Positions 24,541 through 51,764 of a DNA stretch of 64,000 nt are shown piece by piece. Positions within the stretch are counted from its first letter, which is position 1, and every line of letters starts with the position of its first letter. The notes beneath the pieces are model-generated. The model ran no database searches, had not been told where the DNA came from, and saw only the letters and a list, made by a program, of their open reading frames with translations. The DNA comes from Eubacterium sp. (GTDB lineage Bacteria; Bacillota; Clostridia; Oscillospirales; Acutalibacteraceae), in assembly GCA_017463985.1 (NCBI GenBank), contig JAFUEH010000020.1, positions 83,298 to 147,297 of the forward strand, given 5' to 3'. Both the position numbers and the translations under genes were made by a program.

Positions 24541-24576
24541 TTTGTTATACATTTGTTATACGTCTTATGTTATACT
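24541..24576 (+). promoter_or_regulatory. SARP-type direct-repeat promoter 1 (STAS-SpoIIE-NRPS operon)
   Basis: Repeat 1 is TTTGTTATACA (24541-24551) and repeat 2 is TTTGTTATACG (24552-24562), an 11-bp period. Eight bp later comes TATACT (24571-24576). No -35 consensus sits at the right distance; that region is occupied by the repeats. A T-rich tract followed by CATAACATCTCAA lies upstream, as at the other three sites. Confidence 0.85.
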
Positions 24577-24627
24577 CTAAATTGGTTAGGTTTATAATTC
24601 TATAATGATGTTATTGGAGGAATGGAA

Positions 24628-24918
24628 ATGGACATCAAAAAAGAAATGAATACTTCAAAGGTTACGCTTTCACTGAAGGGATGGCTTGACACGCAGACAG
24701 CACCTGCACTTAAGGCGGAGCTGGATTCACTTGAAAGCAACATTACCGAGCTTGAAATTAACTGCGCTGAGTTGGAGTATATCTCTTCTGCAGGGATCAG
24801 GCAGCTGGTTGCCGCTCATACAAAGATGAACGGAAATCTTGCACTGAGCAACGTGTCTGCTGAGGTGATGTCCGTACTGAAAATGACGGGCATTAACAAT
24901 GTTTTGAAAATAAAATGA
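24628..24918 (+). CDS. STAS-domain anti-sigma factor antagonist
   Basis: A 96-residue stand-alone STAS domain of the SpoIIAA/RsbV type. The phosphorylatable serine lies in ELEYISSAGIRQLV near residue 53, and KGWLDTQTAPALKAELDS is the usual N-terminal helix region. Unphosphorylated STAS proteins bind HATPase-type partner kinases, and PP2C phosphatases reactivate them. The ATG at 24628 has TTGGAGG 7 bp upstream; the ATG at 24622 is too close to it. It overlaps the next gene by 4 bp and is the first gene after direct-repeat promoter 1. Confidence 0.9.
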   Translation: MDIKKEMNTSKVTLSLKGWLDTQTAPALKAELDSLESNITELEINCAELEYISSAGIRQLVAAHTKMNGNLALSNVSAEVMSVLKMTGINNVLKIK

Positions 24919-26861
24919 AAAAATCAGAGTCGATCAAAAAGAAAATATTAAAGCGATTTGTTGCGTCAACATTGATAATTGTTGTTATCGTATCGCTCTT
25001 TACGCTCGTGTCGGTGCATTTTTATACGGATCATAAATACCAAGACGAGGCGGAGAAAATGTCAACACTCGTCATTAACAGTGTTTTAGATGGCGTAAAT
25101 CTCTCTTCTCTTTCTCCTGAGAAGGATAATGAGGAGTATGAACGGGTGACAGACATTTTCCAAAATTTCTGCTCTGCTTACAGGTTACACTATATGTACC
25201 TTTATACGCTTGAGGACGGAATGATTGTAAGAAAGGTGATTGCTTCCGGTAACCCTGACGCTGCTCAAAAAGTAGAACATGATGGATTAATTGAGGGAAG
25301 GCGAGAGCCTGACGAATATGAAACAGCCATCATTTCGGGAAGATCAACCCAGGCAAGTTGGGAGGAAAATAACCGATACGGTAATGTGCGTTGCTTTCTT
25401 TTCGGCATATATGATAGTGACGGAAGCCTGAAAGGCTTTCTCGGAATTGATTATACCGAATCGGATATTGCAGGCTATGTAGCCAGAAGTACAGTGGTGA
25501 TTGTTGCCATACTCGTTATACTTCTTGCGGTAATATTCAAAACGGAATACCGAACCCTCAATAAAAATATCTTTGAGCCTGTCAGTGAAATTTCTGATAA
25601 GATGAGCTGCTTTGCCTCTGAACGCGGGAATACCGGCGAGCCGCTGAAAACAGAAGCAGGCGCGGAAATTCAAAGTATTGTCAGCTCGTTTGAAAAAATG
25701 TCGGTAGATATTGAAAACTACGTTGATAACATTGAAAGTCTTACCGAGGAGCGGGCGAAGGCAGACGCCATGATGGAGGCTGCCAGGAAAATCCAAATGG
25801 GCTTTGTACCTGCCGTGCTTGAGCGCAACTGTGTAAGCGCGGGAATATATGCTATCGAAAGCCCTGCCAAAGCCGTTGGCGGTGATTTTTATGATTGCTT
25901 TGTCAAGGACGGATATTTGTTTGGCGTTGTGGGCGATGTTTCGGAAAAAGGAATTTCCGCTGCGCTCTTTATGGTGGTGCTGAAATCTAAAATATCGGAT
26001 TATATGAAAGCCGGCTTGTCGCCTGCAGAAGCACTGCTCGCGGTCAATGATGAGATGTCGCAGCAAAATCCCGAGGGGATGTTTGCAACAGCGTTTGCTT
26101 TTAAGCTGAATTTATCCGGCGGAGAAATGACCTTTGCCAACGCAGGTCACAACAGACCGATTATCATTTCGTCCAATACGCATTATCTTGATATGAACAG
26201 CGGTATGTTGCTTGGCTTAATGAAGGGAATACCCGTGAAAGACGAAACGCTTTGCCTGAAGCCTTCGGATTCCATCCTGATCTATACCGACGGTGTGACA
26301 GAGGCTGTTAATAAAAGCAAGGAGTTTTTCGGAGAAGAAAGGCTGATTTCCTTGCTGAAAGGCAATGAAGTCAAAAAGCCTAAGGATATTTCAGCGCTGA
26401 TTAAGACGCGTGTTGACGAATTTCAATCAGACGGAGAGCAGTTTGACGACATAACCGTTTTCAGCCTTCAATATTACGGCTGTGCAGCATTAACATTGTC
26501 GCCAGAGCTTTCAGCCTTTGACGAAATAACAGATAATGTTTTCTGCAGACTAGGTTGTCACGAGGCGACAAGGAAAATGCTTCTCGCCTGCGAGGAAATA
26601 TTTGTGAATATTTGCAGCTATGCTGAAGCGACGGAGGTAAAAGTAAAAATAGAGGATGAAAAAGGCGATGTTGCCATCATGTTTTCAGACAACGGCTCGC
26701 CCTTTAATCCTCTGGAATACGACAAAACAAAAACATTTGAGGAGCTTGCTGGCGGCGGCATGGGGATTTCTATGGTAAAGCAGCTTGCAAAGGAAATCAG
26801 CTATCGCTATGAAAACAGTAAAAATACTCTGAAAATGGTTTTCAGTAACGGAGGTAAGTAA
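24915..26861 (+). CDS. Membrane SpoIIE/RsbU-type phosphatase fused to an HATPase domain
   Basis: A 648-residue sensor. One membrane helix near residue 15-35 is followed by an external Cache-like domain (to about 190), a second helix (STVVIVAILVILLAVIF) and a short HAMP/coiled segment. The PP2C-type SpoIIE domain starts at about residue 290 (ARKIQMGFVPAVL, AVGGDFYDCFV, VVGDVSEKGISAALFM, NAGHNRPI). The C-terminal HATPase_c (about 525-648) has LLACEEIFVNICSYA, FSDNGSPFNPL and GGGMGISMVKQLA. So it carries both the phosphatase and the partner-kinase activities expected to act on STAS proteins. It overlaps the STAS gene and is immediately adjacent (0 bp) to the NRPS gene, implying coupling. Confidence 0.9.
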   Translation: MKKSESIKKKILKRFVASTLIIVVIVSLFTLVSVHFYTDHKYQDEAEKMSTLVINSVLDGVNLSSLSPEKDNEEYERVTDIFQNFCSAYRLHYMYLYTLEDGMIVRKVIASGNPDAAQKVEHDGLIEGRREPDEYETAIISGRSTQASWEENNRYGNVRCFLFGIYDSDGSLKGFLGIDYTESDIAGYVARSTVVIVAILVILLAVIFKTEYRTLNKNIFEPVSEISDKMSCFASERGNTGEPLKTEAGAEIQSIVSSFEKMSVDIENYVDNIESLTEERAKADAMMEAARKIQMGFVPAVLERNCVSAGIYAIESPAKAVGGDFYDCFVKDGYLFGVVGDVSEKGISAALFMVVLKSKISDYMKAGLSPAEALLAVNDEMSQQNPEGMFATAFAFKLNLSGGEMTFANAGHNRPIIISSNTHYLDMNSGMLLGLMKGIPVKDETLCLKPSDSILIYTDGVTEAVNKSKEFFGEERLISLLKGNEVKKPKDISALIKTRVDEFQSDGEQFDDITVFSLQYYGCAALTLSPELSAFDEITDNVFCRLGCHEATRKMLLACEEIFVNICSYAEATEVKVKIEDEKGDVAIMFSDNGSPFNPLEYDKTKTFEELAGGGMGISMVKQLAKEISYRYENSKNTLKMVFSNGGK

Positions 26862-29800
26862 ATGTTTGATATTATCAAAAAAATAGAGAAAAATGCGGCA
26901 GAAAATCCAAATAAAAAAATCGTTTTTGATCCGAAAGGCAGCTATACTTATGCCGAGCTGAAAAGCCTTGCAAGAAAAATTGCAGGCAAGCTCAACAGGC
27001 TAGGCATCGGTGAGGGCGATTTTGTAACGATTGAGCTCCCAAGAGAGAGAATATACGTTGCGGCGATGTACGGCGCCGTGCTTTCAGGGGCAGGCTATGC
27101 GCCGCTTTCTCCCGAATATCCCGAGGAAAGACTGGAATACATCAGGGAAAACTGTAAGGCAAAGGCGATTATTAACGAACGCTTTTTAAGGGGTATTGAA
27201 AGCGAGGCGGAATTTGCTGTTGCCGACCGCAACCCTGCTTCACCTGCGTTATTGATTTATACCTCCGGTTCAACGGGAAAGCCAAAGGGCGTTTTGCACC
27301 ACTACGACAGTATGTGCGATTCTGTTTACCGTTACGGCGATATTGTCGGATTGGCTGAGGGATCGACGGTTGCCCTCAATGCGCCGTTTACATTTATTGT
27401 TTCGTTGTTGGATATTGTCTATCCTCTTACAGCAAACATGGCAGAATTCATCATCCCATACAGCACGATGAGAGACCCGGTGCTGCTGGCAGATTTCGTT
27501 AACGAAAATAATATTAACCATCTTTTCATCAGCCCTAAAATCCTGAAAATTTTTCAGCCAAAGGGCCATTCACTGAAAAGCGTCTATACAGGAAGCGAAA
27601 GAGTATCAAACATCTATTTTGATGATTTTGACGTGATAGTATTCTATGGGCAGAGTGAATGTGCCGGCACGCTATCCTTTTTAGTTGACAAGAAATATGA
27701 AAACACGCCTATCGGCAAGGCTGCTGACGGCGTTGCTATGTATGTACTGGACGACAACGGTAACGAGGTCGAGGAGGGCGAACTTTGCCTGACAGGCACC
27801 TTCGCCTCTTGCTATCTTGGGTTGGAGGAGCAGTCCAAAAAGACCTTTGTTCCTAACCCGTTTGAGAGCAGAGACGGCCATAAAAATATGCTTAAAACGG
27901 GCGATATTGTGAAGCTTGGCGAGGACGGAAACGTTATTTTCCTCAACCGCCGTGACTGGATGGTAAAAATCAACGGTCAGCGTGTGGAGCCCGGCGAAAT
28001 TGAAGCCATCATCAAAAATACAGACGGCATTTTTGATGCTGCCGTCAAGGATTTTAAAAATCAGTACAACCAGGTATATTTGGTTGCTTACTATGTTGAA
28101 AATGAGCCTATTGACGCAGAAGACATTAGACGTGCTATCGCTAAAAAACTGCCGTCGTATATGATTCCGGCTTTCTTTGTGAAGCTGGATAAGCTACCTG
28201 TTAACCAAAACGGCAAGCTTGACAGAAGCGCTCTTATGGCACCCGAGGCAAGCGATTTCAGAAGCGAATATATTGCGCCAGAAACAGAGCTGCAAAAGGC
28301 AATCTGCGAGGCGTTTGAGAAGATATTAGGCCTTGAGAAGGTCAGTGTTGAGGATGATTTCTTTGCCCTTGGCGGTGACTCTATTAAGAGCGCGATGGTG
28401 TGCGCAGAATGTGCGCTTTATCGCCTTACCTCTGCGGATATATTTGCCGGAAAAACGCCGAGAGTCATCGAACGTATTTTGCTTGAAAAGGCCTCCAAAA
28501 ACGCCGCCTCCGAAACAAAAGAAAGAAAGAGAATTTACCCGCTTACGCCGATGGAAAGGGGTATGTATCTTGAACAGAAGCTCAATGAAAGCAGCACTAT
28601 TTACAACCTAAATGTTGCCATAACCTTGGAGGGCCCTGAAGTTGAGACTGTTAAAGCGGCGATTGACAAGGTGTTTATGGCGCACGAGGCGCTTCATTCC
28701 ACTTATGGTGAGGAGAACGGACTACCTGTCAGAATTTTAATGAATACGCTTCCCGAAATCAAGGTCGTGGAAGGTAAGCGCATTGACGAGGTAATGCAAA
28801 TTGTTGATACAAAATTGGAGCCGTTCAATCTTAACGACGGTATTCCTGCGCGTTCAACGCTTTATCCGCTGGCGGACGGAAAAATCATTTATCATCTTGA
28901 AATACATCATATCGCTTTTGACGGCGGTTCTGCGCAACCGTTCTTTGACGAGTTAATGGCTGCTGTTCAAGGTAAGGAAATCAAGCCTGCCGGTATAGAG
29001 CTTTCCGATCTATATGAGGACGCCCTAAACGCTGACAACAGCAAGGGAATGGCGTTTTATAAGGAGCTTTTCAGCGACGGCGTACCTGTTAACGATATGC
29101 CGATCAAGGGCAAAAGACCGAAGGTGCATCCGCTGGGAGACACAGAGCTTTCCTTCACTTATACTACAGATGAGATAAAGCGCATTGACCTGGCGGCAAA
29201 GAAGTACCAGATGACTGAGTTTGAACTGATTTTTTCTGCTGCTGCAATGGTGCTTGGAAAATACACTGCAAGCGAGGATGTTGTACTGGGTATTCCGACG
29301 AATATGCGTCCTGCGGGAGCGGAGGGCGTGATCGGTATGTTTGTGAATACGGCGCCCGTTCGTATTAAGCCTGAAAGGCAGCAAAAGATAAACGATTATC
29401 TTTCCGGTGTCAGCGAAGCGGTCAGGAACGCAACCTACGGTGCTTCGCTGCCGTTTGAGGAGATAGTCGGTGAGTTTGCAAAAACAAGGGATGAATCGAG
29501 AAATCCGATTTTCGATGTCAGCGTCAATTATCATTATCTCCCTGATCAATATGAGGGCGACGGCATAACCGCGTCACTGTATGTACCGCTTCAAAAGATG
29601 AGCAGGGATTTGGGAATTGTGATCGTCAAAAGAGGTAACGAACTCAAATTCACCATTCAGTATTCCTCGCTTTTGTTTGACGCTACGGTTGTAGAAAATT
29701 TTGCTGAGCAGTTAAGAGCAACCCTCACGGTACTTACAGAGGGTAGCGCCAAAACAGTTCGCGATGCCCTCGCATTGCCTGCGCCTCAGCTTCAGGCTCT

Positions 29801-32786
29801 TGAAAAATTCAGCATTACCGCCGAAAGCGAAATGAGCGAAGGCTTGCTTCATCAGCTGTTTGAAAAAAATGTTCGGGAAAATGAAAACAAAATCGCCTTA
29901 ATTGCCAAGGACGGCACGTTTACTTACGGCGAACTCAACAAAAGAGCAAATGTTTTAGCCAATAACCTTATCGCAAAGGGCGTAAAGGTTGGCGATAGCG
30001 TAGCGCTTTTACTCCCCAGAAGGAGCTGCTTCTTCGCCGCGTTGTTCGGCGTTAACAAGGCAGGCGCGGCGTTCATACCTTGTGATCCGCAGTATCCTGC
30101 CGACAGAATCAATCATATCATAACCGATTCAGAGGCTGCCTTTATCATCACCACAGAGGACAAGTTAGCAGATTATCCGAGCGAAAAGGCGATTAATATT
30201 GATGAACTGATGATCGGCGATGATACGGAAAATCCGAATGTGCCGATGAGCGATGATGAGCTTTCCTATATGATTTACACCTCCGGTTCAACCGGAAAGC
30301 CAAAGGGCGTTATGCTCCGTCATCAAGGCATTTGTAATTATCTGAATCCTCATCCTGCCAATATCCATATTCACCGCATTAAAGAGGCAGTGGGCAACTA
30401 CCTGTCAGTGACAACAGTTTCCTTTGATATGTCCTTTAAGGAGCACTGTGCGGCGCTTTGCAACGAGAAAACGCTCGTGTTCACCTCGGAGGACGAGATG
30501 AATGATCCGAGGGCGCTTGCAGAGATGATGCAAGAATATGATATTGACTGCATTAATGCAACACCCTCAAGGCTGGCGCAGTATATGGAATACGCTCCGT
30601 TTACCGAATCGTTAAAAAGCTGTAAACTGATTATGTCGGGCGGCGAGGCTTATCCGTTGTCGCTTCGTGATCACCTTAAAGCTGCTGCACCGCAGGCAAT
30701 GATTGTGAATACCTACGGACCGACGGAAATCACTGTTTCCTGTAATGCGGGCGATTTGACGAATGCAGAATATGTCACCGTCGGCAGACCGCTTTTGAAT
30801 TACAAGGAATATATTGTTGATAAGTTTGGCGATTTGGCGCCTTTCGGCGTAATCGGTGAGCTTTATATCGGCGGCGTCGGCGTTGCAAAGGGCTATAAAA
30901 ATCTGAAAGAAAAAACCGAGCAGGCGTTTGTTGATTTTAACGGTCAAAGGATGTATCGCTCAGGCGACTACTCCAAGTGGGACAAAAACGGTTTTGTCCA
31001 GATTTTAGGCAGATTGGATAATCAGGTTAAGCTGCGCGGACTGCGTATTGAGCTTGGAGAAATCGAAGGCTTAATTGCCGCTCAGCCGTACATTAAGAAT
31101 GCGGTTGTTGTCATCAAAAAAATTAACAATCAAGAAAATCTTTGCGCCTATTTTACGGCGGAAAAAGAGATTGATATTAATGCACTGCGTGAGGAGCTGA
31201 AAAAGCATTTAACGCATTATATGGTGCCTACGGCGTATCTTCAGATGAATGAAATGCCCGTCACGGCAAACGGTAAAACCGATATTAAGAACCTTCCCGA
31301 GCCGATTGCCACTGCAGTCAACGAATATGTTGCTCCCGAAACCGAGCTTGAAAAATTCTTCTGCGAAGTGTTTGAAAAAGCGCTGAAACTCGATAAAGTT
31401 GGTGCAACGGATGATTTCTTTGAGCTTGGCGGCAGCTCGCTGGTTGTTACCTCGGTTGTCGTTGCGGCCAGCGAAAAGGGATATGATTTAACCTACGGCG
31501 ATGTTTTCAAAATGACGACGCCGAGAGCGTTGGCACAGCTCTTTGGAAAAGGGGAGAAAGCCTCCACCGGTCTGTTTGATTTTGAGGACTATGACTATTC
31601 GGCCATTAACGCGCTGCTTGATAAGAACACGGTCGAGTCTTTCATCGGCGGTGATATGCGTGAGCTCGGTAATGTGCTGATAACGGGTGCTACGGGCTAT
31701 ATGGGCGCGCATCTGCTGGCGCAGTATCTTGACGAGGAGAAGGGCAGGGCATACTGCCTGATCCGCAAGGGCGAATTTAAGTCAGCCAAGAGCCGCTTGC
31801 AGGCCATGATGTTCTATTACTTTGACGATAAGTATGTTGAGGAAATTGAGCACCGCGTTGACGTGCTGGACGGTGATGTTACCAATTATGCCTGCTTTGA
31901 ACCGTTTGAAGAGCTTGAAATTAATACGATTTTTAACTGTGCGGCCAATGTAAAGCATTTCTCGAGCGGAACGGATATTGAGGATATCAACGTCGGCGGT
32001 GCCGTGAACTGCGTTACGCTTGCCGAAAGGCTCGGCGCAAGGCTGATTCACTTCTCAACGATTTCTGTCGGCGGAACCACGGACGATTTATCAAAGCTTT
32101 CCAAAAAGGTACTTGACGAGCAGGCGTTCTACTTCGGTCAGGATTTGGATAATAAATATATTTCTTCCAAGCTGATGGGCGAAAGAGCCGTGCTGGAGGC
32201 TGTTGCTGACGGAAGAATTGACGGTAAGGTGATCCGTGTCGGTACGCTGTCAGCAAGAGAGTCTGACGGTGAGTTCCAGATTAACTTCCTGACAAATAAT
32301 TTTATGGGAAGACTGCGCTCGTATAACCTGCTCGGTTGCTTCCCGTACAGTATGATCGAAAATCAGACCTGTATGGGCCCGATTGATGCCTCCTGCAGGG
32401 CGTTCCTCAAGCTTTCCAAAACGCCGAAGGCTTGCTGTCTGTTCAATGCGGTCAACAACCACACCATACCGCTTGGCGATATTATCCGCCAGATGAATAA
32501 AAACGGTATGAATATTCGCTTTGTGGAGTACAGTGAATTTGTGGATGCGCTGACAGAGGCGCAGCAGGATGCGGAAAAGGCTGCTATCCTTTCAAGTATG
32601 ACGGCGTATATGGGACACACCTCGGAAAAGCAGGTGATCACCGTGCCGTTTTCCTCGCATTATACCACGCAGATTCTCGCAAGGCTCGGCTTCTTCTGGA
32701 ACGCCGGCGGTGAAGAATATGTTAACCATTTTATCAATTCCTTAAGAGGCTTCGTCTTCTTTGATAAGGATAACCTGAACCGATGA
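26862..32786 (+). CDS. Two-module NRPS with terminal reductase (A-PCP-C-A-PCP-R)
   Basis: A 1974-residue nonribosomal peptide synthetase. Domains in order: A1 (1 to about 475; YTSGSTGKPKG near 130); PCP1 with FFALGGDSIKSA, Ser near 506; C (about 550-985) with HHIAFDGGS near 682; A2 (about 1000-1465; YTSGSTGKPKG near 1138, FDMSFKE, NTYGPTE); PCP2 with FFELGGSSLVV near 1523; and a thioester reductase from about 1600 with NADPH motif TGATGYMGAHLL and catalytic YISSK near 1765. Reductive release gives an aldehyde (or alcohol). This is the domain order of gut-bacterial NRPSs known to make dipeptide aldehydes and pyrazinones. A2 has the amino-acid-binding Asp, but A1 has Ile in its place (FIVSLLD for FDxSVWE) and FYGQSE for YGPTE, so the first building block may not be an alpha-amino acid. 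No phosphopantetheinyl transferase or exporter is in the window. TAA of the preceding gene abuts the ATG. Confidence 0.95.
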   Translation: MFDIIKKIEKNAAENPNKKIVFDPKGSYTYAELKSLARKIAGKLNRLGIGEGDFVTIELPRERIYVAAMYGAVLSGAGYAPLSPEYPEERLEYIRENCKAKAIINERFLRGIESEAEFAVADRNPASPALLIYTSGSTGKPKGVLHHYDSMCDSVYRYGDIVGLAEGSTVALNAPFTFIVSLLDIVYPLTANMAEFIIPYSTMRDPVLLADFVNENNINHLFISPKILKIFQPKGHSLKSVYTGSERVSNIYFDDFDVIVFYGQSECAGTLSFLVDKKYENTPIGKAADGVAMYVLDDNGNEVEEGELCLTGTFASCYLGLEEQSKKTFVPNPFESRDGHKNMLKTGDIVKLGEDGNVIFLNRRDWMVKINGQRVEPGEIEAIIKNTDGIFDAAVKDFKNQYNQVYLVAYYVENEPIDAEDIRRAIAKKLPSYMIPAFFVKLDKLPVNQNGKLDRSALMAPEASDFRSEYIAPETELQKAICEAFEKILGLEKVSVEDDFFALGGDSIKSAMVCAECALYRLTSADIFAGKTPRVIERILLEKASKNAASETKERKRIYPLTPMERGMYLEQKLNESSTIYNLNVAITLEGPEVETVKAAIDKVFMAHEALHSTYGEENGLPVRILMNTLPEIKVVEGKRIDEVMQIVDTKLEPFNLNDGIPARSTLYPLADGKIIYHLEIHHIAFDGGSAQPFFDELMAAVQGKEIKPAGIELSDLYEDALNADNSKGMAFYKELFSDGVPVNDMPIKGKRPKVHPLGDTELSFTYTTDEIKRIDLAAKKYQMTEFELIFSAAAMVLGKYTASEDVVLGIPTNMRPAGAEGVIGMFVNTAPVRIKPERQQKINDYLSGVSEAVRNATYGASLPFEEIVGEFAKTRDESRNPIFDVSVNYHYLPDQYEGDGITASLYVPLQKMSRDLGIVIVKRGNELKFTIQYSSLLFDATVVENFAEQLRATLTVLTEGSAKTVRDALALPAPQLQALEKFSITAESEMSEGLLHQLFEKNVRENENKIALIAKDGTFTYGELNKRANVLANNLIAKGVKVGDSVALLLPRRSCFFAALFGVNKAGAAFIPCDPQYPADRINHIITDSEAAFIITTEDKLADYPSEKAINIDELMIGDDTENPNVPMSDDELSYMIYTSGSTGKPKGVMLRHQGICNYLNPHPANIHIHRIKEAVGNYLSVTTVSFDMSFKEHCAALCNEKTLVFTSEDEMNDPRALAEMMQEYDIDCINATPSRLAQYMEYAPFTESLKSCKLIMSGGEAYPLSLRDHLKAAAPQAMIVNTYGPTEITVSCNAGDLTNAEYVTVGRPLLNYKEYIVDKFGDLAPFGVIGELYIGGVGVAKGYKNLKEKTEQAFVDFNGQRMYRSGDYSKWDKNGFVQILGRLDNQVKLRGLRIELGEIEGLIAAQPYIKNAVVVIKKINNQENLCAYFTAEKEIDINALREELKKHLTHYMVPTAYLQMNEMPVTANGKTDIKNLPEPIATAVNEYVAPETELEKFFCEVFEKALKLDKVGATDDFFELGGSSLVVTSVVVAASEKGYDLTYGDVFKMTTPRALAQLFGKGEKASTGLFDFEDYDYSAINALLDKNTVESFIGGDMRELGNVLITGATGYMGAHLLAQYLDEEKGRAYCLIRKGEFKSAKSRLQAMMFYYFDDKYVEEIEHRVDVLDGDVTNYACFEPFEELEINTIFNCAANVKHFSSGTDIEDINVGGAVNCVTLAERLGARLIHFSTISVGGTTDDLSKLSKKVLDEQAFYFGQDLDNKYISSKLMGERAVLEAVADGRIDGKVIRVGTLSARESDGEFQINFLTNNFMGRLRSYNLLGCFPYSMIENQTCMGPIDASCRAFLKLSKTPKACCLFNAVNNHTIPLGDIIRQMNKNGMNIRFVEYSEFVDALTEAQQDAEKAAILSSMTAYMGHTSEKQVITVPFSSHYTTQILARLGFFWNAGGEEYVNHFINSLRGFVFFDKDNLNR

Positions 32787-40287: not shown

Positions 40288-40323
40288 TTTGTTATACATT
40301 TGTTATACATCGTGCGTTACAAT
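40288..40323 (+). promoter_or_regulatory. SARP-type direct-repeat promoter 2 (1627-residue secreted protein)
   Basis: TTTGTTATACA occurs twice in tandem (40288-40298, 40299-40309), then 8 bp (TCGTGCGT), then TACAAT (40318-40323). Upstream is TTTTTTCAAAAACACCTC, the same context as promoters 3 and 4. No -35 box. Confidence 0.88.
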
Positions 40324-43300: not shown

Positions 43301-45265
43301 TATCCCGGCAGAATCTATGTATACTACAGATTATTCGATGATCTATACGTAACCGCACGTATCAAGCATGATACAGAATTTAGCCAGGACGTCGGTTATC
43401 AGAAAGATATTACCTACGTTTATACCGACTCGCACTTCTACAGTGATCCGCAATGGGCTTGGGCTGACGATTATAGCAGTGCCACAGCCACCTTCACCTG
43501 CGGCTATCCTTCCTGTCGGAATGAGGAAACCGTAGACGCAACCGTTACCACGGCGCACAAGGACGGCAACACCACCTTTACGGCAACGGTAGAATTTGAA
43601 GGTAAAACCTACACGGCAACCGTTTCTCTTAATTACGTGGAAAAGGTAGAACCGTATATTGATGAAAACGGCGCCTATATCGTCGGCAATGTTGCGTATT
43701 ATTATTATACGGATAGACTCGGCTACAATTATGCGGTAAACGAGGACGGTAGCGTAGGCGATCAGCTTGATTCCGTGGAACTCAGCTACTTTGAATTTGG
43801 GGATTTTACGGACGACACCTGCAGAGTATTGTTCTACACGGGTTCGTATGATGACCTTGAAAACGGCGAGCTTGTTATTCCTAAGACCTATTACGGCAAA
43901 AAAGTAATCGCTGTCGGTAAATTTAGCGATGAAAAATTCACCTTTATGGAAAAGACGACCGGCGAAAAGAAGCAGTTTGTGCTGACGCTGAATGAAAATA
44001 TTGAGGAAATCGCTTCCTATGCCTTTTATAAGGAATGGGTAACGAAGGTGCAGGGCGATACCTCAAACCTGAAAATATTAAATAGTTATGCTTTCGCAGA
44101 CGCTAACGAACCCAGTGGTTATACGCTGGATATTCAGCTCGATTATCCCGGCAGAATCTATGTATACTACAGATTATTCGATGATCTATACGTAACCGCA
44201 CGTATCAAGCATGATACAGAATTTAGCCAGGACGTCGGTTATCAGAAAGATATTACCTACGTTTACACCGACCCGCATATCTACAGTGATCCGCAATGGG
44301 CTTGGGCTGACGATTATAGCAGTGCCACAGCCACCTTCACCTGCGGCTATCCCTTCTGTCGGAATCAGGAAACCGTAGCCGCAACCGTTACCGCGGAGGA
44401 CAAGGACGGTGTGCGTACCTATACGGCAACAGTAGAATTTGAAGGCGAAACCTATACCGATACGAAGGAAACGGCAATTCCGCTGGATACGGACGCCTAC
44501 TACGCAGCGCTGGCTGAGGCGAACGCGCTCAAGGAAACTGACCTGATGCAGTACGAGGATTACGAAACCTTCCTGGCAGAAATTGACGGCGCAGAGGTTG
44601 ATTTTGCGGCAGCCACCACGCAGGCTGAGGTTGACGCGGCAACAGCAAGAATCATCGCGGCGATTGAGAACCTTAAGAAAGGTTATATTGAGCCAGAATA
44701 TAAAGGCACTTGCAATATCGTTGGTCTTGGTGATATAATCATTATGACAAACGGAAAATCGGAATATGAAGCGCAGTACGACGAAAAGGTTTACCTGCTT
44801 GCTCCTGATGCCGATGCAAAGTTTGCCTACACGAACGCTGACGGCAGTGAGATTTACGCTTACCTTAGCAGCAATATTCTGTATGCACCGAAGAACAACA
44901 CGATCTATATCAAGGCTGTTTCCACGGTGACGGAGGGCAAGGCGTTTATCGCCGGTACTTCTTTTGAAAACCGCAAGGCAAAGTACAACTGCCAGTATTC
45001 CGTTCCTGATGGCGCAACCGATATTGAAACGGGCATTGTGATGAGCTTTGATAAGGCCACAACGCTGGAGCTCGGTGCCGATGGCGCCAGAGCGTTCAAG
45101 GCCAATAAGATCGGTGCGCAACACGAATACTCCATTGTCTTCAATATCAGCGACGGTAATATGGGCAAAACGATTTACGCAAAGAGCTACTTAACCTACA
45201 CCTTAAACGGTGAAACGATTACCGTTTATAGTGACCAACATAATATTCAATTAAAGGAGGATTAA
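40382..45265 (+). CDS. Large secreted protein with BspA-type repeats
   Basis: A 1627-residue secreted protein. A signal peptide (MKKVLSLLLSVLMVVTMLPL, cleavage near TALA) is followed by about 450 residues of unknown fold. A jelly-roll-like region (about 540-720; LLKNGNFGSGGKGW) and an InlB-type divergent repeat (about 735-805) come next. Then there are two tandem 279-residue units (from about residues 809 and 1088) holding BspA-type leucine-rich segments (LNENIEEIESYAFYKEW). A FIVAR-like segment (about 1367-1430) and a C-terminal domain (about 1435-1627) nearly identical to that of the CotH protein complete it. No cell-wall anchor is visible. An adhesive or ligand-binding surface role fits the modules, but no enzyme signature was seen. 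AAAAGGAGGACAAC precedes the ATG. Confidence 0.8.
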   Translation: MKKVLSLLLSVLMVVTMLPLSGVTALAEDASDFKHYDVTIAVPETVYMKPQSNYTTKGTEVQYYVNNNVDESGNVSLDNSRDATAGTFSVYGEDIESIDSVSVDGATRYGFKISQNGKRFYDDSFTLELTEGISSAETKLLEWTIDCTMTDGTNAEFKAFTVAYAPYLEPAVSAIRVKNCNGDDSFCQSLGYISGIQGIGGDGDYYSASNFLPLVTAYDDMKGSGTQRADAFLSSSQVAGLPNKNVNYSDYAPDSWIAAINYVEAQQVTPWGMLTIDTSRYTNLNQVPNLTLGLSITDTENADVVYGYIGKFDISNSYWKYDSGKPKAGQDYISYSTSSSESYNYVLEHHKGTYPFGAVNYFTYGRPNSNSLYDGGNVAILYTDILWYEEIETGEQNYYAIQGARTKQNVDNAVNTHITRLNVNGVDKSGLRSAVQKYEAYGLQREWFSYKALYDAYLNELKDAATRLGDPVAYDTSYDKLEAAFTKLMETEPYVSTDNGYYNITATKTGNKTYQLSAEHVADPEGKTVQYEYVLHNNLLKNGNFGSGGKGWSNEDTDFVINDGYERGNAFATKNQLHELSQTVALTDFYTEEELNTGDIRLTLGGDVYNIISYGALAKQAKLYVEILDGNGELINTVYALNNVRDSDDTYISEDGTFSEDFTLPTNARSLNVVCAGQDGLAWMGYYGPRFDNIYLSETGNESPALSEDNTFEFGKFNIDISAKYTVLQNYQITTEAAENGTVTTDKSVTYETDTVTITATGDKGYVVNTLTVTDADGNKIAVTDNQFTMPSSDVTVSATFVPAEYVERVEPYIDENGAYIVGNVAYYTDGNGNNYAVNEDGSVGDQLDSVELSYFEFADISDNTCRVSFYTGSYDDLENGELIIPKTYNGKKVTAVGEFSSEKFTFMEKTTGEKKQFVLTLNENIEEIESYAFYKEWVTKVQGDTSNLKILNSYAFADANEPGGYTLDIQLDYPGRIYVYYRLFDDLYVTARIKHDTEFSQDVGYQKDITYVYTDSHFYSDPQWAWADDYSSATATFTCGYPSCRNEETVDATVTTAHKDGNTTFTATVEFEGKTYTATVSLNYVEKVEPYIDENGAYIVGNVAYYYYTDRLGYNYAVNEDGSVGDQLDSVELSYFEFGDFTDDTCRVLFYTGSYDDLENGELVIPKTYYGKKVIAVGKFSDEKFTFMEKTTGEKKQFVLTLNENIEEIASYAFYKEWVTKVQGDTSNLKILNSYAFADANEPSGYTLDIQLDYPGRIYVYYRLFDDLYVTARIKHDTEFSQDVGYQKDITYVYTDPHIYSDPQWAWADDYSSATATFTCGYPFCRNQETVAATVTAEDKDGVRTYTATVEFEGETYTDTKETAIPLDTDAYYAALAEANALKETDLMQYEDYETFLAEIDGAEVDFAAATTQAEVDAATARIIAAIENLKKGYIEPEYKGTCNIVGLGDIIIMTNGKSEYEAQYDEKVYLLAPDADAKFAYTNADGSEIYAYLSSNILYAPKNNTIYIKAVSTVTEGKAFIAGTSFENRKAKYNCQYSVPDGATDIETGIVMSFDKATTLELGADGARAFKANKIGAQHEYSIVFNISDGNMGKTIYAKSYLTYTLNGETITVYSDQHNIQLKED
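42809..44483 (+). repeat. 837-bp tandem duplication inside the secreted protein gene
   Basis: Starting at GTAGAACCGTAT (42809) and again at 43646, two units of about 837 bp are nearly identical at DNA level over most of their length, including silent positions (for example the block ending in ACCTTTATGGAAAAGACG). They diverge mainly at both ends. This in-frame unequal duplication is recent. Confidence 0.9.
44486..45257 (+). repeat. Module shared with the CotH gene (36421-37200)
   Basis: The last roughly 260 codons (FIVAR-like segment plus C-terminal domain) match the 3' end of the CotH gene, with long stretches of identical DNA such as the region around AACAAGATCGGTGCGCAG. The sequence similarity ends with the coding region. 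Gene conversion or recent module duplication is implied. Confidence 0.85.
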
Positions 45266-45267
45266 CC

Positions 45268-45381: not shown

Positions 45382-45389
45382 ATGAGTCG

Positions 45390-45410: not shown

Positions 45411-45453
45411 TGCTTATATATGTGCCACTGATTGATGTAGAAAGCAGGGAAAT

Positions 45454-46138: not shown

Positions 46139-46146
46139 AAGCTCGT

Positions 46147-46175: not shown

Positions 46176-46209
46176 AAGGGCTGCAATTTTTGAAAAGGGG
46201 ACTATTGCG

Positions 46210-47448
46210 ATGGAAGAATACATTATTCTTATGCCAATGGGTATTCAGCTGCTCGGCTTACTGCTGGTAGTTTTGAATGATAAATATATCCGCAAAGAGC
46301 AGAAACAAACTATGACGGTTATCATCGGCCTGATCAGTCTGCTTTTAGCGCAGAATGTTGTTGATAATATTCTCGGTACAACCGTTTCTATGCCCTATCT
46401 CAGGACGGTTGTCAGCATTGTAGGCTATTCCGTCAGACCGATTATCATTGTGATGTTCTGCAAGCTGGTAAGACCAAACGGAAAAAATACCGTGGCGTGG
46501 GTTTTGGTAATTCTGAATGCATTAATATATCTTTCGGCGCTGTTTTCCCGTTTTGTATTTTATATTGATCCAGATAATCATTTTCACAGAGGCTCCATAT
46601 TCAATTATACTGCGTATGTTGTCAGTTTTATTTTGCTGGCGCATCTTATCTATTGTACGATTTCCGAATACAAAAGCCGAAAATCCTTTATCTGGATTGC
46701 CCTTATCAATGCAGCGATCATTGTTATTTCCGCCATACTTGAAATAACGCCTGCTTACTTTGATTATCCCGTAGGTTATCTGACGATTGCTATTGTCTGC
46801 TGCAGCCTTTTCTATTATATTTGGCTGCACCTTGAATTCGTCAGAGAGCACGAAAGAGCGCTGATGGCGGAGCAGCGTATTAAGATCATGATGTCGCAAA
46901 TTCAGCCGCATTTTGTGAGTAACACGCTGACGACGATTCAGTCCCTTTGTATGCTCGATCCGCCAAAGGCAGCAGAAATCACGGGAAAGTTCGGTGCCTA
47001 TATCAGAAATAATATCGCTTCTCTTGATGAAGAGAAGCTGATACCGATCAAAAAAGAAATTGAGCATACAAAAATTTATACCGAAATTGAAATGCTGCGC
47101 TTTCCCGATATCAGCGTGGAATACGAAATAGACGAGGAGGATTTTTCCGTTCCGGCGCTGACGGTGCAGCCGCTCGTTGAAAATGCGATCCGTCACGGCG
47201 TTCGCGAGATTGAGAACGGAAAGGTGAGCATTGTAACAAAAAATACAGAAAAAAGTCATATTATTACGATCCGTGATAACGGCGTCGGCTTTGATACGGA
47301 TACGCTTTCGGTGCAGGACGGCGCGCATATCGGTATCAACAATGTCCGCGAAAGAGTGAAGGCGATGTGCGGCGGCACACTAGCGATTGACAGTCAAATC
47401 GGTAAGGGTACAACGGTTACTATTACAATCCCAAGGAGAACAGCATGA
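46210..47448 (+). CDS. LytS-like membrane sensor histidine kinase
   Basis: A 412-residue kinase. The first 215 residues form about six to seven membrane helices (a 7TM-type sensor) with no large external domain. The His_kinase domain has the phosphorylated His in MMSQIQPHFVSNTLTTIQ near residue 237. HATPase_c has VQPLVENAIRHGVREI (N box) near 320, IRDNGVGFD (G1) near 360 and GINNVRERVKAMCGG near 380. This is the LytS/YpdA/YehU group, which usually pairs with LytTR regulators; here its partner has a SARP-like output instead. The gene overlaps the regulator by 4 bp. Confidence 0.92.
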   Translation: MEEYIILMPMGIQLLGLLLVVLNDKYIRKEQKQTMTVIIGLISLLLAQNVVDNILGTTVSMPYLRTVVSIVGYSVRPIIIVMFCKLVRPNGKNTVAWVLVILNALIYLSALFSRFVFYIDPDNHFHRGSIFNYTAYVVSFILLAHLIYCTISEYKSRKSFIWIALINAAIIVISAILEITPAYFDYPVGYLTIAIVCCSLFYYIWLHLEFVREHERALMAEQRIKIMMSQIQPHFVSNTLTTIQSLCMLDPPKAAEITGKFGAYIRNNIASLDEEKLIPIKKEIEHTKIYTEIEMLRFPDISVEYEIDEEDFSVPALTVQPLVENAIRHGVREIENGKVSIVTKNTEKSHIITIRDNGVGFDTDTLSVQDGAHIGINNVRERVKAMCGGTLAIDSQIGKGTTVTITIPRRTA

Positions 47449-48245
47449 AAATTATATGCGTTGACGATGAAAAGCTGATATTACAGCTGGTGATGCTTAT
47501 GTGCGAGCAGCTGCCGCAGGTCAGCGAGGTGGTGGGCTTTTCAAGCGCCCTTGAAGCGCTGGAATACCTCAAGGACAATTCGGCGGATATTGCGCTGCTG
47601 GATATTGAAATGCCAAAGATGAACGGTATCACGCTTGCCGTAAAAATCAAGGAGCTGCAGCCCAAGCTATCCGTGATCTTTCTGACAGGTTATTCGCATT
47701 ATGCGCTTGACGCACTGAAAATTCACGCCAGCGGCTATATCTTAAAGCCTATTGAAAAGGATAGGCTGGCGGAGGAAATCAATTACGCCATGTCCGCAAA
47801 GGAGCCTCCCGCGTATCCTCATATCTATGCAAAAACCTTTGGCGAGTTTGATTTGCTCGTTGACGGGAGTCCGGTGCACTTTCCGCGCTCAAAGGCAAAG
47901 GAGTTGCTTGCCTACTTAGTGGATAAGCAAGGTGCCGGCGTGAAGCGGAAGGCAGCGTTTGCTGCTTTGTACGAGGACGCCATCTATGACCGCAAAATGC
48001 AGAACAGCTTTAACGTCATTGTGCACTGCCTGAAAACCGTGCTTGCCGAACACGGCGTAGGCGAAATTTTTGAAATGAATACAGGTGAACTAAGGGTTAA
48101 CCCAACGCTGTTTGACTGTGATCTGTACCGGCTGTTACAAGGCGACACACAGGCCGTCAATGCTTATCGCGGCGAATATATGACCGCGTATTATTGGGCA
48201 AATTTGACAGAAAGCTTTATCGACAACTCCTTGAGAAATGAATAA
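47445..48245 (+). CDS. Response regulator with SARP-like DNA-binding output domain
   Basis: A 266-residue regulator. The receiver domain (1-118) has all key residues: acidic pair Asp7/Asp8 (CVDDEK), phospho-acceptor Asp53 (LLDIEMPKMNG), Thr81 (FLTGYS) and Lys101 (ILKPIEK). The output (about 128-235) is an OmpR/SARP-type winged helix: KTFGEFDLLVDGSPVHFPRS, KAKELLAYLVDKQGAGV, then the recognition-helix region YDRKMQNSFNVIVHCLKTVL and a wing. A short C-terminal helical piece (to 266) corresponds to the beginning of a BTAD domain. SARP proteins bind 11-bp-spaced direct repeats 8 bp upstream of the -10, exactly what precedes four operons here. It is therefore the prime candidate for their activator. 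Confidence 0.9.
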   Translation: MKIICVDDEKLILQLVMLMCEQLPQVSEVVGFSSALEALEYLKDNSADIALLDIEMPKMNGITLAVKIKELQPKLSVIFLTGYSHYALDALKIHASGYILKPIEKDRLAEEINYAMSAKEPPAYPHIYAKTFGEFDLLVDGSPVHFPRSKAKELLAYLVDKQGAGVKRKAAFAALYEDAIYDRKMQNSFNVIVHCLKTVLAEHGVGEIFEMNTGELRVNPTLFDCDLYRLLQGDTQAVNAYRGEYMTAYYWANLTESFIDNSLRNE

Positions 48246-48268
48246 ATATTGCAATGTCTTTTGCTGGG

Positions 48269-48297
48269 AGTGCTTTCCTGCAGGAGGCATTATTTTT
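48269..48297 (+). terminator. Terminator after the two-component genes
   Basis: TGCTTTC / GAGGCA hairpin (with G-U pairs, loop CTGCAG region) followed by TTATTTTTTG, about 25 bp after the regulator stop. Confidence 0.55.
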
Positions 48298-48333
48298 TGA
48301 ATATTTTTTAAATTTTTCAAAAAACACCCCATT

Positions 48334-48369
48334 TTTGTTATACATTTGTTATACATCGCCCTGTATAAT
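48334..48369 (+). promoter_or_regulatory. SARP-type direct-repeat promoter 3 (choline-binding-like protein)
   Basis: TTTGTTATACA twice in tandem (48334-48344, 48345-48355), 8 bp (TCGCCCTG), then perfect TATAAT (48364-48369). Upstream TTTTTCAAAAAACACCCC matches promoters 2 and 4. There is no -35 hexamer: TACATT lies at that position. Confidence 0.9.
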
Positions 48370-48422
48370 AAGATTAACATTTTTGTTTATTAGACAAATC
48401 AAACACAAGAAGGAGGACAAAA

Positions 48423-51400
48423 ATGAAAAAGATTTTAAGCTTATTGTTGAGTATTTTAATGGTGATGACGGTATTGCCGTCCTTCTCCGTCTCGGCTTAC
48501 GCCGACGGAGGCGGTTTAGGCGCTTCGTCAACCACGAGAGAGGGCTATACCTATTCTATCAGCGTCAGAACAACAGATGATGCAGACGGCTGGAATGCCG
48601 CATATTTCAGAATAGCTAAATCAGAGGATGACTATAACCAATTTCGTGAATGGGACATCAAGGATGATATTGATAACTCGGGCGAGATCTTCTATACCGA
48701 ATACACCAGCAGTATTTTTTATGACAAATTGGTGCTTTATGTTGATTTCGGCGGCGGCGTCACCTGGCGTAATTGGTCGGGTGCTGTGACGGTTAAAATC
48801 AATGATGTTAACGTTTGGTCCGCAAACGTCAGCGCTTCTTCGTCAGCCGGCAGCAGCTCAAATACACGGTTTGACACAATAGTGGATAAACCGCAGCCTT
48901 CATCATTTGATGTTTACCTGAGTAAGAATGAAAGCGGTGAAAAAGACCGCAACCTGAAATTTGTTCAGAGCAAGGATGACGCAAAGGGTGAAATTAACGG
49001 CAATTTGTATTGGGAAATCATAGACGACTATAATGCTTTTTGGAAAGCACCGAATGATAGCCCTGTCAGCGTGGAATCTAACAACGTTGTTGCCTCTGTT
49101 CAGGAGGAGCTTTCGAAAGCATACAAACTGGCTGTAAAAAGCAATAACGGTTATGACCATACCGGCACGATAACGCTGACGGCGGGAAGCCTTTCAAAAG
49201 ATTATGACATGGATTTCGTTTTCTGGCACAGTATTGATGTGGAATCTGCTGAACATGGCACGGTAACTGTGTCCGAAGAAAAGGCTTATGCCGGTGATAC
49301 GGTCACGCTCACTACGCAGCCACAGGACGGCTATGCTTTAAAAAGTGTTATCGTAACAGATGAAGACGGTAACGAGGTTGCTGTAACAGGCAATAAATTT
49401 ACGATGCCTAATAGCGACATCAAGGTAACAGCAGCATTTGAGCCGACAACCTACATAGCAAAATTCGTTTCCGACGGTAAAACTGTTGCAGAAATTCCGT
49501 ATACTGTCGAAACCGCAGAAATTGAAGAACCTGCCGTTCCCGAAAAGCCCGGCTATACCGGCGCGTGGTCGGCCTACACGCTTGCCATCGGCGGCGTTGT
49601 GGTGGAAGCCAAATATGAGAAGGAGTTCCACGATTTCCGTGTTACAGCCTCCTCACCGGCCACCTGTACCGAGGAAGGCTATGACACTTATACGTGTACG
49701 ATCTGCGGCGAGTCGTATAACGTTACGACTACACCGGCAACAGGTCATGTTTATAAGGTAACCTCCTCTACGGCAGCCACCTGCACCGCAGAGGGCTACG
49801 ATACTTATACCTGCGAAGTGTGCGGCGCAACCTATAACAAGACGACTACACCGGCACTCGGCCATGCCTTTACGGTCAAGATTGATACCGTAGCAGCTAC
49901 CTGCACTGAGGAAGGCTACGAGGTTTATCAGTGTGAAAGATGTGACGCTACTTATGAAAGAGTCACCACACCGGCAACAGGTCATGTTTATAAGGTAACT
50001 GCCTCTACGCCGGCAACCTGCACAACTGAGGGTTATGATACCTATACGTGTACTATCTGCGGTGATTCCTACCATGCTTCGACAACACCGGCAACAGGTC
50101 ATGTTTACAATGTAACTGACTCTACGCCGGCAACCTGCACTGCAGAGGGTTATGATACCTATACCTGCGAGATCTGCGGCGCAACCTACAATAAGACGAC
50201 AACGCCGGTTGCAGCCCATCTGTTTTCAACGAGAGAATTTAAGGACGCTACCTGCACAGAGCCGGGCTATACGGTTTACGAGTGCCTGAACTGCGGTACG
50301 GCCTATAGGGGCGACTTCATTTCCGCAAAGGATCATCACTTTGCGGCTGATGTCGTTGCGCCGACCTGCGCTGAGGAAGGCTACACCTATTATACCTGCG
50401 AGGTTTGCGGCGAAACCAGAAAGAACGCCGACGGCTCGCTGTATCAGACGAATATCAAAAAGCCTGTCGCTCACGTGCTGAATACGGTGTCTACCGTAGC
50501 ACCGACTTGCGGCGAAGACGGCAAGAAGGTATCCGAATGTATTAACTGCGGCTATGTGCAGGAGGAAGTGATTCCGGCAACAGGCGATCATTGGTATACC
50601 GCGTTCATGGTGACCGAGCCGACTTGCGCCGAAACCGGCGTGATGGCCTATATGTGTGCAAACTGCGACGCCCTTTATTATGAAGAGCTGCCTGTGACAG
50701 GCGACCATAATTATGACGGCACCATGGTGATCGAGGACGCTGATAATTACAGAATCAATCCTTCGCAAACCTGCACCGTATGCGGTCAGCAGGAGGCGCT
50801 GGTGCTGAACGGCTGGTGCAAGCACCCCGAAATCGGCAGATGGATGTTCCTTGAAAATAATGCAAAGCGCCGCGGCTGGCTGCATATTCCTGAGCCGTTC
50901 GACCAGTGGTATTATCTGGATAACGACGGTTACATGGTGACCGGCTTGTATGAGGTAGACGGCAAGAAGTATTATTTCGACGAGTACGGCGTCATGCAAA
51001 CCGGCTGGTATCATGATGAGGAAAACGACGCATGGTATTATGCTGACGAAGAGACTGGCGCTATGGTGACCGGCTGGAACGTGATCGACGAGCGCACTTA
51101 TTACTTCGGTGAGGACGCCGTTATGCTCACGGGCTGGCAGAAGGTAAAGGGTAAGTGGTATTACCTGTCACCTGAGGACGGCAGCATGCAGACTGGCTGG
51201 CAAAAGGTAGACGGTAAGTGGTATTACCTTGATCCGGACAACGGCGACATGAAAACAAGCTGGCAGCAGATCGACGGCAAGTGGTACTACTTAAAGGCCT
51301 CCGGCGAAATGGCTACCGGCTGGCTGAAGCAGGGAAGCACTTGGTACTATCTGAATGTGTCCGGCGCGATGGCCACCGGCTGGAAGGCCGTTGACGGCAA

Positions 51401-51626
51401 GTGGTATTACTTTGACGCTACCACCGGCGCGATGAAGACCGGCTGGCAGAAGATCAATAAGAGCTGGTACTATCTCAGCACCTCCGGCGCGATGGTTACC
51501 GGTTGGCGTTATATCGATGGCGCGTGGTACTATTTCAACAATTCCGGTTCGATGAGAACGGCATCCCTGACAGAAAACGGTAAGGTTTACCGCTTTGCTG
51601 CCTCCGGCAAGTGCCTGAACCCGTAA
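48423..51626 (+). CDS. Secreted protein with Cys-pair repeats and cell-wall-binding repeats
   Basis: A 1067-residue secreted protein with a signal peptide (MKKILSLLLSILMVMTVLPS). About 240 residues of unknown fold precede an InlB-type divergent repeat (about 275-340; SAEHGTVTVSEEKAYAG) and a second beta repeat (to about 400). Then come about nine to ten repeats of near 38-42 residues (about 400-785), each with CTxEGYxxYxC and a following CxxC (TCEVCGATY). These could bind metal or form disulfides. The C-terminus (about 795-1060) has about ten choline/glucan-binding type repeats (TGWQKVDGKWYYLDPDNG and variants), which attach proteins non-covalently to wall polymers. No catalytic domain is evident, so it is probably an adhesin or structural surface protein. 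Confidence 0.85.
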   Translation: MKKILSLLLSILMVMTVLPSFSVSAYADGGGLGASSTTREGYTYSISVRTTDDADGWNAAYFRIAKSEDDYNQFREWDIKDDIDNSGEIFYTEYTSSIFYDKLVLYVDFGGGVTWRNWSGAVTVKINDVNVWSANVSASSSAGSSSNTRFDTIVDKPQPSSFDVYLSKNESGEKDRNLKFVQSKDDAKGEINGNLYWEIIDDYNAFWKAPNDSPVSVESNNVVASVQEELSKAYKLAVKSNNGYDHTGTITLTAGSLSKDYDMDFVFWHSIDVESAEHGTVTVSEEKAYAGDTVTLTTQPQDGYALKSVIVTDEDGNEVAVTGNKFTMPNSDIKVTAAFEPTTYIAKFVSDGKTVAEIPYTVETAEIEEPAVPEKPGYTGAWSAYTLAIGGVVVEAKYEKEFHDFRVTASSPATCTEEGYDTYTCTICGESYNVTTTPATGHVYKVTSSTAATCTAEGYDTYTCEVCGATYNKTTTPALGHAFTVKIDTVAATCTEEGYEVYQCERCDATYERVTTPATGHVYKVTASTPATCTTEGYDTYTCTICGDSYHASTTPATGHVYNVTDSTPATCTAEGYDTYTCEICGATYNKTTTPVAAHLFSTREFKDATCTEPGYTVYECLNCGTAYRGDFISAKDHHFAADVVAPTCAEEGYTYYTCEVCGETRKNADGSLYQTNIKKPVAHVLNTVSTVAPTCGEDGKKVSECINCGYVQEEVIPATGDHWYTAFMVTEPTCAETGVMAYMCANCDALYYEELPVTGDHNYDGTMVIEDADNYRINPSQTCTVCGQQEALVLNGWCKHPEIGRWMFLENNAKRRGWLHIPEPFDQWYYLDNDGYMVTGLYEVDGKKYYFDEYGVMQTGWYHDEENDAWYYADEETGAMVTGWNVIDERTYYFGEDAVMLTGWQKVKGKWYYLSPEDGSMQTGWQKVDGKWYYLDPDNGDMKTSWQQIDGKWYYLKASGEMATGWLKQGSTWYYLNVSGAMATGWKAVDGKWYYFDATTGAMKTGWQKINKSWYYLSTSGAMVTGWRYIDGAWYYFNNSGSMRTASLTENGKVYRFAASGKCLNP
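49645..50780 (+). repeat. In-gene array of about nine Cys-rich repeats
   Basis: Units of roughly 117-130 bp contain the codons for ACCTGCACTGAGGAAGGCTA-like and ACCTGCGA..TGCGGC segments. They are imperfect and their similarity falls towards the 3' end, consistent with old and recent unit duplications. The reading frame is preserved throughout. Confidence 0.8.
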
Positions 51627-51668
51627 CAATCCATAGCAACCAATTTTCATTCTCAATAGAATAACAGT

Positions 51669-51700
51669 AATGCTTTCCGCTCATCCGGAAAGCATTATTT
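51669..51700 (+). terminator. Terminator after the wall-binding protein gene
   Basis: AATGCTTTCCG (51669-51679) and CGGAAAGCATT (51686-51696) form a perfect 11-bp stem followed by ATTTTTTTAAAT. Confidence 0.9.
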
Positions 51701-51728
51701 TTTTAAATTTTTTCAAAAATACCCCGTT

Positions 51729-51764
51729 TTTGTTATACATTTGTTATACATCGCCTTGTATAAT
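51729..51764 (+). promoter_or_regulatory. SARP-type direct-repeat promoter 4 (AIM24-L,D-transpeptidase operon)
   Basis: TTTGTTATACA twice in tandem (51729-51739, 51740-51750), 8 bp (TCGCCTTG), then TATAAT (51759-51764). Upstream TTTTTTCAAAAATACCCC is nearly identical to promoter 3. Confidence 0.9.

Follow-up and report, generated by a model that had tools for sequence, protein, structure and literature searches.

We analyzed a 64,000-nucleotide stretch of a Eubacterium sp. genome (GenBank assembly GCA_017463985.1, contig JAFUEH010000020.1, positions 83,298 to 147,297; hereafter, the window) that carries four tandem-repeat promoter sites and, at 47445, the gene of a response regulator. A first-pass annotation had described the sites as two 11-bp units, with one G variant, followed by 8 bp and a −10 hexamer, and all four were recovered at the positions it gave. 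Judging from comparisons of sequence, these four promoters very probably form one regulon activated by the response regulator encoded at 47445. The predicted promoter sites are as follows:

Site 1, 24541..24576, + strand: TTTGTTATACA followed by TTTGTTATACG, the second unit ending in G, then 8 bp and TATACT as the −10; promoter in front of the operon encoding STAS, SpoIIE, and a nonribosomal peptide synthetase (NRPS)
Site 2, 40288..40323, + strand: both units perfect, with TACAAT as the −10 after 8 bp; promoter in front of the gene for a 1627-aa secreted protein
Site 3, 48334..48369, + strand: both units perfect, with TATAAT as the −10 after 8 bp; promoter in front of the gene for a 1067-aa choline-binding-repeat protein
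Site 4, 51729..51764, + strand: both units perfect, with TATAAT as the −10 after 8 bp; promoter in front of the AIM24, L,D-transpeptidase, and HAD gene run

The gene content behind the sites agreed with the initial description, to which we add that the NRPS operon opens with STAS and SpoIIE/HATPase genes:

24622..24918, + strand: protein with a STAS domain of the anti-anti-sigma type, encoded first after site 1
24915..26861, + strand: SpoIIE-type phosphatase with C-terminal anti-sigma-type ATPase (HATPase) domain
26862..32786, + strand: NRPS comprising two adenylation domains, a single condensation domain, two carrier domains, and a terminal reductase domain
40382..45265, + strand: 1627-aa secreted protein with InlB-type and leucine-rich repeats
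46210..47448, + strand: sensor histidine kinase (PF06580 and HATPase_c), with a 4-bp overlap with the regulator gene
47445..48245, + strand: response regulator, the proposed activator, with a receiver, a SARP-like DNA-binding domain, and a short tail resembling the bacterial transcriptional activation (BTA) domain; recognition-helix residues N190 and H194
48423..51626, + strand: 1067-aa secreted protein with choline-binding repeats
51800..52486, + strand: AIM24-family protein, first gene past site 4
52582..53373, + strand: L,D-transpeptidase (YkuD)
53984..55117, + strand: HAD hydrolase with an N-terminal membrane anchor, as judged by eye

Site 3 starts 88 bp past the end of the regulator gene. 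In the source assembly (2.58 Mb, 41 contigs, 97% complete), a search with the 22-mer of both repeats at ≤3 mismatches returned only the four window sites, as did the looser pattern TTTGT-N6-TTTGT-N14-TANNNT, with no reversed-control match in either search. Single units with ≤1 mismatch numbered 10 in the window against a shuffle mean of 1.22, and at least 10 were reached in 0 of 100 shuffles. The proposed lack of a −35 element was borne out, since at 16–18 bp spacing all four sites show ACATTT, TACATT, or ATACAT, unlike TTGACA. An extended −10 TG was present in 47 of 102 sites across relatives; among the four window sites it occurred only at site 1, and it was therefore kept out of the claim.

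To place the sites in a wider context, we used two samples. The genus sample comprised 80 genomes, from which 29 homologue regions, including that of the window, were analyzed; the wider sample comprised the best 80 of at least 577 confirmed relatives from named genomes, mostly rumen or gut Clostridia by record title. The combined set held 109 regulator loci, three of them duplicates (G, C, and L numbers below denote genomes, contigs, and regulator loci). With no motif assumed, the 300 bp 3′ of the regulator gene were scored for self-repetition at each lag; lag 11 was detected in 17 of 29 genus loci, compared with 0–4 for other lags and 1.4 after shuffling. In the wider sample, lag 11 was found in 36 of 79 loci (3.6 after shuffling and 2.2 in other segments of the same loci), followed by lag 12 with 13 loci, a lag that was also raised in the other segments (approximately 9).

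Gathering tandem units without any condition on the −10 yielded 114 distinct pairs. TANNNT stood at spacer 8 in 104 of these, the next best spacers being 3 and 10 with 20 each, and at least five of the six TATAAT letters were present at spacer 8 in 81. After removal of duplicates, TT(GG|AT)ACA pairs were separated by 11 bp in 62 cases (63 with duplicates) and by seven other distances, up to 60, once each; one locus (L174) held a triple unit. The unit definition was fixed after the first sites had been seen, and a set of 119 sites was selected for spacer 8 and a −10; therefore, unit letters, spacer, and −10 are not independent evidence in that set, and the independent evidence is the lag statistic, the unconditioned spacer count, and the linkage described below. 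The DNA upstream of the repeats was A/T-rich: counted from the first repeat, A/T made up 68% of positions −30 to −11 and 56–59% beyond −70 (116 sites).

These counts also bear on the idea that the four sites are recent promoter duplicates within the island, devoid of regulatory meaning. Sites 2–4 do agree in A/T-rich letters 5′ of the repeats and in the first three letters of the spacer, and CTCAAA lies immediately 5′ of the repeats in sites 1 and 2; however, the same repeat-to-−10 distance recurs in the 104 of 114 pairs, which come from many genera, and the sites stand before many different genes, making mere duplication exceedingly improbable.

At least one site was found in 83 of the 109 regulator loci; L071, which was scored as site-less, holds a plausible TTTATTGGACA pair with −10 TATAAA. 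Sites on opposite strands approximately 41 bp apart were observed in L144 (8436/8477), L145 (5563/5605), and L146 (628/668), where divergent promoters could share the regulator. Another tandem class, starting with TTTGTCAC, was seen at L080 (4325) and in G018:C152, G034:C16, G047:C12, and G049:C6, and perhaps belongs to a more distant regulator clade (L077 and L080–L083). The loose TTTGT-N6-TTTGT-N14-TANNNT pattern was too permissive across the genus, matching 51 of 80 genomes, often far from regulators and with many reversed-control matches, and was therefore not used for counts.

Next, we examined the linkage of sites to the regulator. In the genus, 12 sites with ≤1 mismatch to the window 22-mer were distributed among 7 of 80 genomes. 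ATACA sites were present in all six genus genomes encoding a regulator of the window clade and in one of the 74 others (an orphan in G046; p = 2.3e-8). Asn190 was readable in five of these six regulators, the G047 copy being broken with its helix not readable. At ≤3 mismatches, 26 places matched against 12 in the reversed control; therefore, the weak genus matches are largely due to chance. Across the order (295 genomes), sites of the GGACA type were found in five genomes (none in the reversed control), and the regulator's domain was found in 46 at E ≤ 1e-15, including four of the five site-bearing genomes (p = 0.0023); five of the eight sites lay on the same contig as the domain, at most 2 kb away. 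The search of the genome and its relatives for the repeat–8 bp–−10 pattern thus returned the genome's own four sites and, in relatives, recurrences beside regulators, and sites in the genus tracked the regulator instead of being scattered, the outcome that the first-pass annotation had named as refuting its proposal.

The letters of the repeats varied together with the predicted recognition helix (positions in window numbering; four duplicates removed before counting). All eight distinct Asn190 regulators were accompanied by ATACA on both units, and 30 of 37 regulators with Asp190 and Arg194 by GGACA on both units; the seven exceptions include poor or partial site calls. Asp190 combined with His or Gln at 194 went with mixed AG/GG units (2/2), and Arg/Ala at the helix positions of two distant homologues with GC repeats. 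Paralogues within one genome followed the same pattern: in G019, ATACA lay beside L064 and GGACA/AGACA beside L060, and in G047, L067 was accompanied by GGACA and the broken copy, L069, by ATACA. Ser/Gln at position 188 was rejected as the specificity setter, given that L127 and L129 have Gln with ATACA sites. In a tree of 103 regulators, ATACA rows were nested in GGACA lineages and adjoined mixed-site rows, a placement that suggests a stepwise shift of specificity. By means of the EmbR alignment and the AfsR contacts given in PMC10936776, position 190 appeared to correspond to AfsR R87 and position 194 to S91. In AfsR these two residues touch the backbone, one residue off the base-contacting T88 and R92; therefore, it is an inference that 190 and 194 read bases directly.

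Several observations weigh against the proposed pairing of regulator and sites. Sites lacked a linked regulator in G046 in the genus and in G098 and G155:C31 in the order, and the regulator was approximately 235 kb distant from the site in G315:C1. No site was detected in the available sequence of 26 of 109 regulator loci by the criteria used, and in only 55 of 109 did any candidate site lie no more than 350 bp 3′ of the gene, with poor candidates among them. L143 and L187 (Asp190/Arg194) showed clearly different downstream repeats. The N190/AT state requires only one or two origins (32% of bootstrap trees need a single one), so that the co-variation rests on few events. The unlinked sites and the site-less loci would fit repeats that are read by a different, unlinked regulator or by some alternative sigma factor, with the protein encoded at 47445 a mere neighbor. 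We consider this very unlikely because the repeat letters track the helix of the linked regulator, even for the paralogues within G019 and G047, and because linkage extends across the genus, the wider relatives, and the order. Contigs G098:C2 and G155:C31, from two genera, carry GGACA sites that are one letter apart with identical spacer and −10, and neither contig had a domain match at E 1e-15; these near-identical sites are possibly mobile.

The receiver of the window regulator matched PF00072 (E = 7e-25), and its phospho-acceptor D53 was invariant in 23 aligned sequences. Pfam returned no match for the C-terminal half even at E 10, and the DNA-binding fold was brought out by aligned relatives together with structure prediction. 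Trans_reg_C, the only Pfam family in most members, was found in 72 of 80 aligned members, but not in the window protein itself, and, together with the predicted fold, indicated the OmpR-type winged helix of the Streptomyces antibiotic regulatory protein (SARP) family; the sites likewise have the form known for that family, namely direct repeats of 11-bp period with the 3′ repeat 8 bp from the −10. A Foldseek search with the full-length model placed OmpR-family regulators first and was dominated by receiver and OmpR-type matches; therefore, the DNA-binding domain was modelled alone, which brought EmbR and AfsR to the top, with weaker OmpR-type matches. This predicted domain exceeded the span covered by OmpR-type domains by approximately 36–50 residues, an extension that EmbR and AfsR match, and the output was thus not limited to an OmpR-type winged helix in the predicted fold.

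The BTA part was incomplete, and this also tells against a SARP assignment. PF03704 (BTA) was found in 0 of 80 members at E 0.1, and the structural alignment to AfsR covered only its first part, ending near AfsR residue 181. Only 15 residues remain C-terminal to W251 in the window regulator, and 6–39 residues follow this Trp in 103 homologues with the GEYMxxYxW motif; with so short a tail, helices 4–7 of the AfsR BTA and its residues for the C-terminal domain of the polymerase alpha subunit (alpha-CTD) are absent. Because the complete BTA, seven helices in AfsR, was not present, we provisionally describe the protein as SARP-like and do not file it as a canonical SARP. The original proposal of a SARP-like activator at 47445 was supported by predicted fold, linkage, and co-variation, with the amendment that this activator is of the response-regulator type and that its BTA is truncated.

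PhoB-type regulators also recognize direct repeats spaced by 11 bp that stand where a −35 would be, so an ordinary OmpR/PhoB-family regulator binding the repeats like a pho box might have been mislabelled as a SARP. The full-length Foldseek ranking, Trans_reg_C as the sole family in most members, and the DrrB domain as top profile match (E = 3.5e-4) speak for this, as does the use of the same afsS repeats by Streptomyces PhoP and AfsR, reported in the available part of a review (PMC10972967). Given the extension shared with EmbR and AfsR, we regard such a mislabelling as unlikely and retain the SARP-like assignment. The same DNA-binding domain was also observed in open frames of 650–1112 aa in the order (e.g., G113:C39 and G102:C1); 22 of 57 domain matches among those listed sit in frames of at least 650 aa, and other architectures therefore carry the SARP-like domain. 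A viral contig scan for the regulator found none.

To characterize the regulon, we inspected the genes that follow the sites. First genes of at least 150 aa had signal- or membrane-type N-termini in 66 of 93 cases (63 of 90 distinct), compared with 341 of 1216 background frames (p = 4e-16 on counts before duplicate removal; both sets called by one crude rule), and 29 of 71 distinct first products of this type had at least 500 residues. Sites preceded the regulator gene itself in L131, L148, L154, L159, L168, and L204, STAS genes in L143, L151, and L171, and a gene for a longer STAS protein, as judged by eye, in L149; homologues of the window HAD protein came after sites in L062, L145, L149, and L161. 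A relative of the kinase was encoded in 88 of 108 regulator loci, the window excluded.

NRPS matches at E ≤ 1e-60 were obtained in 8 of 80 genus genomes, including that of the window. The orthologues of four relatives (G046, G016, G009, and G021) all had STAS upstream, two of them also SpoIIE; no TTTGTT-type tandem site was found on the operon strand in the 3.3–5.7 kb before their first STAS/SpoIIE gene, and the upstream DNA of G046 and G009 held only unrelated repeats (8–10 of 11 letters). A conserved SARP–NRPS link was thus rejected: of the five genomes compared, this is the only one in which a site was seen before the NRPS operon, and the site therefore looks like local recruitment, not a conserved antibiotic circuit. 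The regulon type itself proved widespread in Clostridia and not special to this island.

Around these genes, four tRNA genes (Gly, Arg, His, and Gln; 23929–24269) lie a little 5′ of site 1, near which the G+C content drops from approximately 0.52 (12–20 kb) to 0.44 (24–28 kb), resembling an island edge. Two D-Ala-D-Ala dipeptidase (M15) homologues are encoded directly past the NRPS gene (32951–33712) and just 5′ of the kinase gene (45454–46113). A second partner-switch module (58925–62417) comprises a STAS-APH fusion (58925), STAS (60100), and SpoIIE-HATPase (60393) and is followed by a sortase at 62635.

Regulators with a receiver and a BTAD are a known class (COG3947). BTAD is counted among response regulators of gene clusters in the available text of PMC10663231, and SARPs are Streptomyces antibiotic activators, described as a genus-specific family in the accessible part of a 2024 review (PMC10972967). 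Searches of the open-access literature, judged by titles and abstract starts, turned up no paper giving a binding site or regulon for receiver-BTAD regulators, and none on such sites in Clostridia; the nearest match, XydS/R of C. cellulolyticum, has an AraC-type regulator instead, according to the available text of PMC3572039. The novelty claimed earlier therefore applies to the regulon in Clostridia, not to the domain class. As far as sequence comparison can tell, many Clostridia of gut and rumen carry the same candidate pairing of regulator and site, in which a change in one partner is matched by a change in the other. We lean toward a large undescribed two-component family in these bacteria, with a minimal SARP output consisting of the winged helix and the first third of the BTA, tandem repeats 8 bp from the −10 in −35-less promoters, envelope and STAS/SpoIIE targets, and a two-residue code in which residue 194 reads repeat position 7 and residue 190 position 8, giving paralogues separate regulons. 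If so, activation would have to do without the sigma region 4 (R4) chair helices and alpha-CTD contacts known from AfsR. Regulons could then be mapped directly in many uncultured species, because finding a tandem repeat at this distance from a −10 would identify the target gene and its regulator together. The family would also offer a natural series of specificity switches for testing how SARP-like domains recognize DNA, and a minimal module with which to ask what polymerase contacts SARP-type activators need.

The sites, their exact geometry and exclusiveness in the genome, the regulator linkage, the matched change of repeat and helix, and the predicted SARP-like fold are computed results. 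In the mechanism we propose, the membrane kinase at 46210 would sense a signal, probably envelope-related, and phosphorylate the receiver at D53. Two SARP-like domains would then bind side by side, one on each 11-bp repeat and separated by one turn of the helix, and, positioned 8 bp before the −10, would replace the −35 and provide the docking surface for sigma region 4 and RNA polymerase in a manner akin to the "sigma adaptation" of AfsR; activation may proceed with the BTA cut to about a third. According to the available text of PMC10936776, SARP sites are direct repeats of 11-bp period with the 3′ repeat 8 bp from the −10, the AfsR repeats are centered at −29.5, and sigma R4 rests on two SARP protomers, not on a −35. 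Because the geometry is the same, the same sigma-adaptation step appears to be the most likely mechanism. E177, in the acidic turn before the recognition helix, is nearly invariant, and the turn falls at about the position of AfsR E76/E77 (approximate alignment), which touch sigma R4, beta, and beta-prime in that text (PMC10936776).

Among known systems, AfsR of Streptomyces coelicolor with its afs box likewise has two 11-bp direct repeats before the −10, the upstream one over the −35 position, and binds as a side-by-side dimer, an arrangement presumed here for the window regulator (PMC10936776, available text). The repeats differ, being TTTGTTATACA/TTTGTTGGACA here and CGTT(T/C)ATCGNN for AfsR (PMC10972967, available part). 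Both proteins have an OmpR-type DNA-binding domain and the start of a BTA, here by predicted fold; unlike AfsR, the window regulator has a receiver ahead of this module and a linked histidine kinase. The AfsR BTA runs to residue 270 in the text available, and its R240, D245, E246, and L263 (alpha-CTD) as well as helices 4–7 of its sigma "chair" are without counterpart in the window regulator. EmbR of Mycobacterium tuberculosis, which presumably lacks a receiver, has an extra FHA domain and, in the part of the source available, aligns with AfsR along the BTA. OmpR/PhoB-type regulators (DrrB, SaeR, and PhoB), which bind tandem repeats, share with the window regulator the receiver with a conserved phospho-acceptor and the winged helix, but have no BTA-like tail and match the window domain more weakly in structure. 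SAPR response regulators (COG3947) consist of a receiver, a winged helix, and a BTAD, and the window regulator probably belongs to the same domain class.
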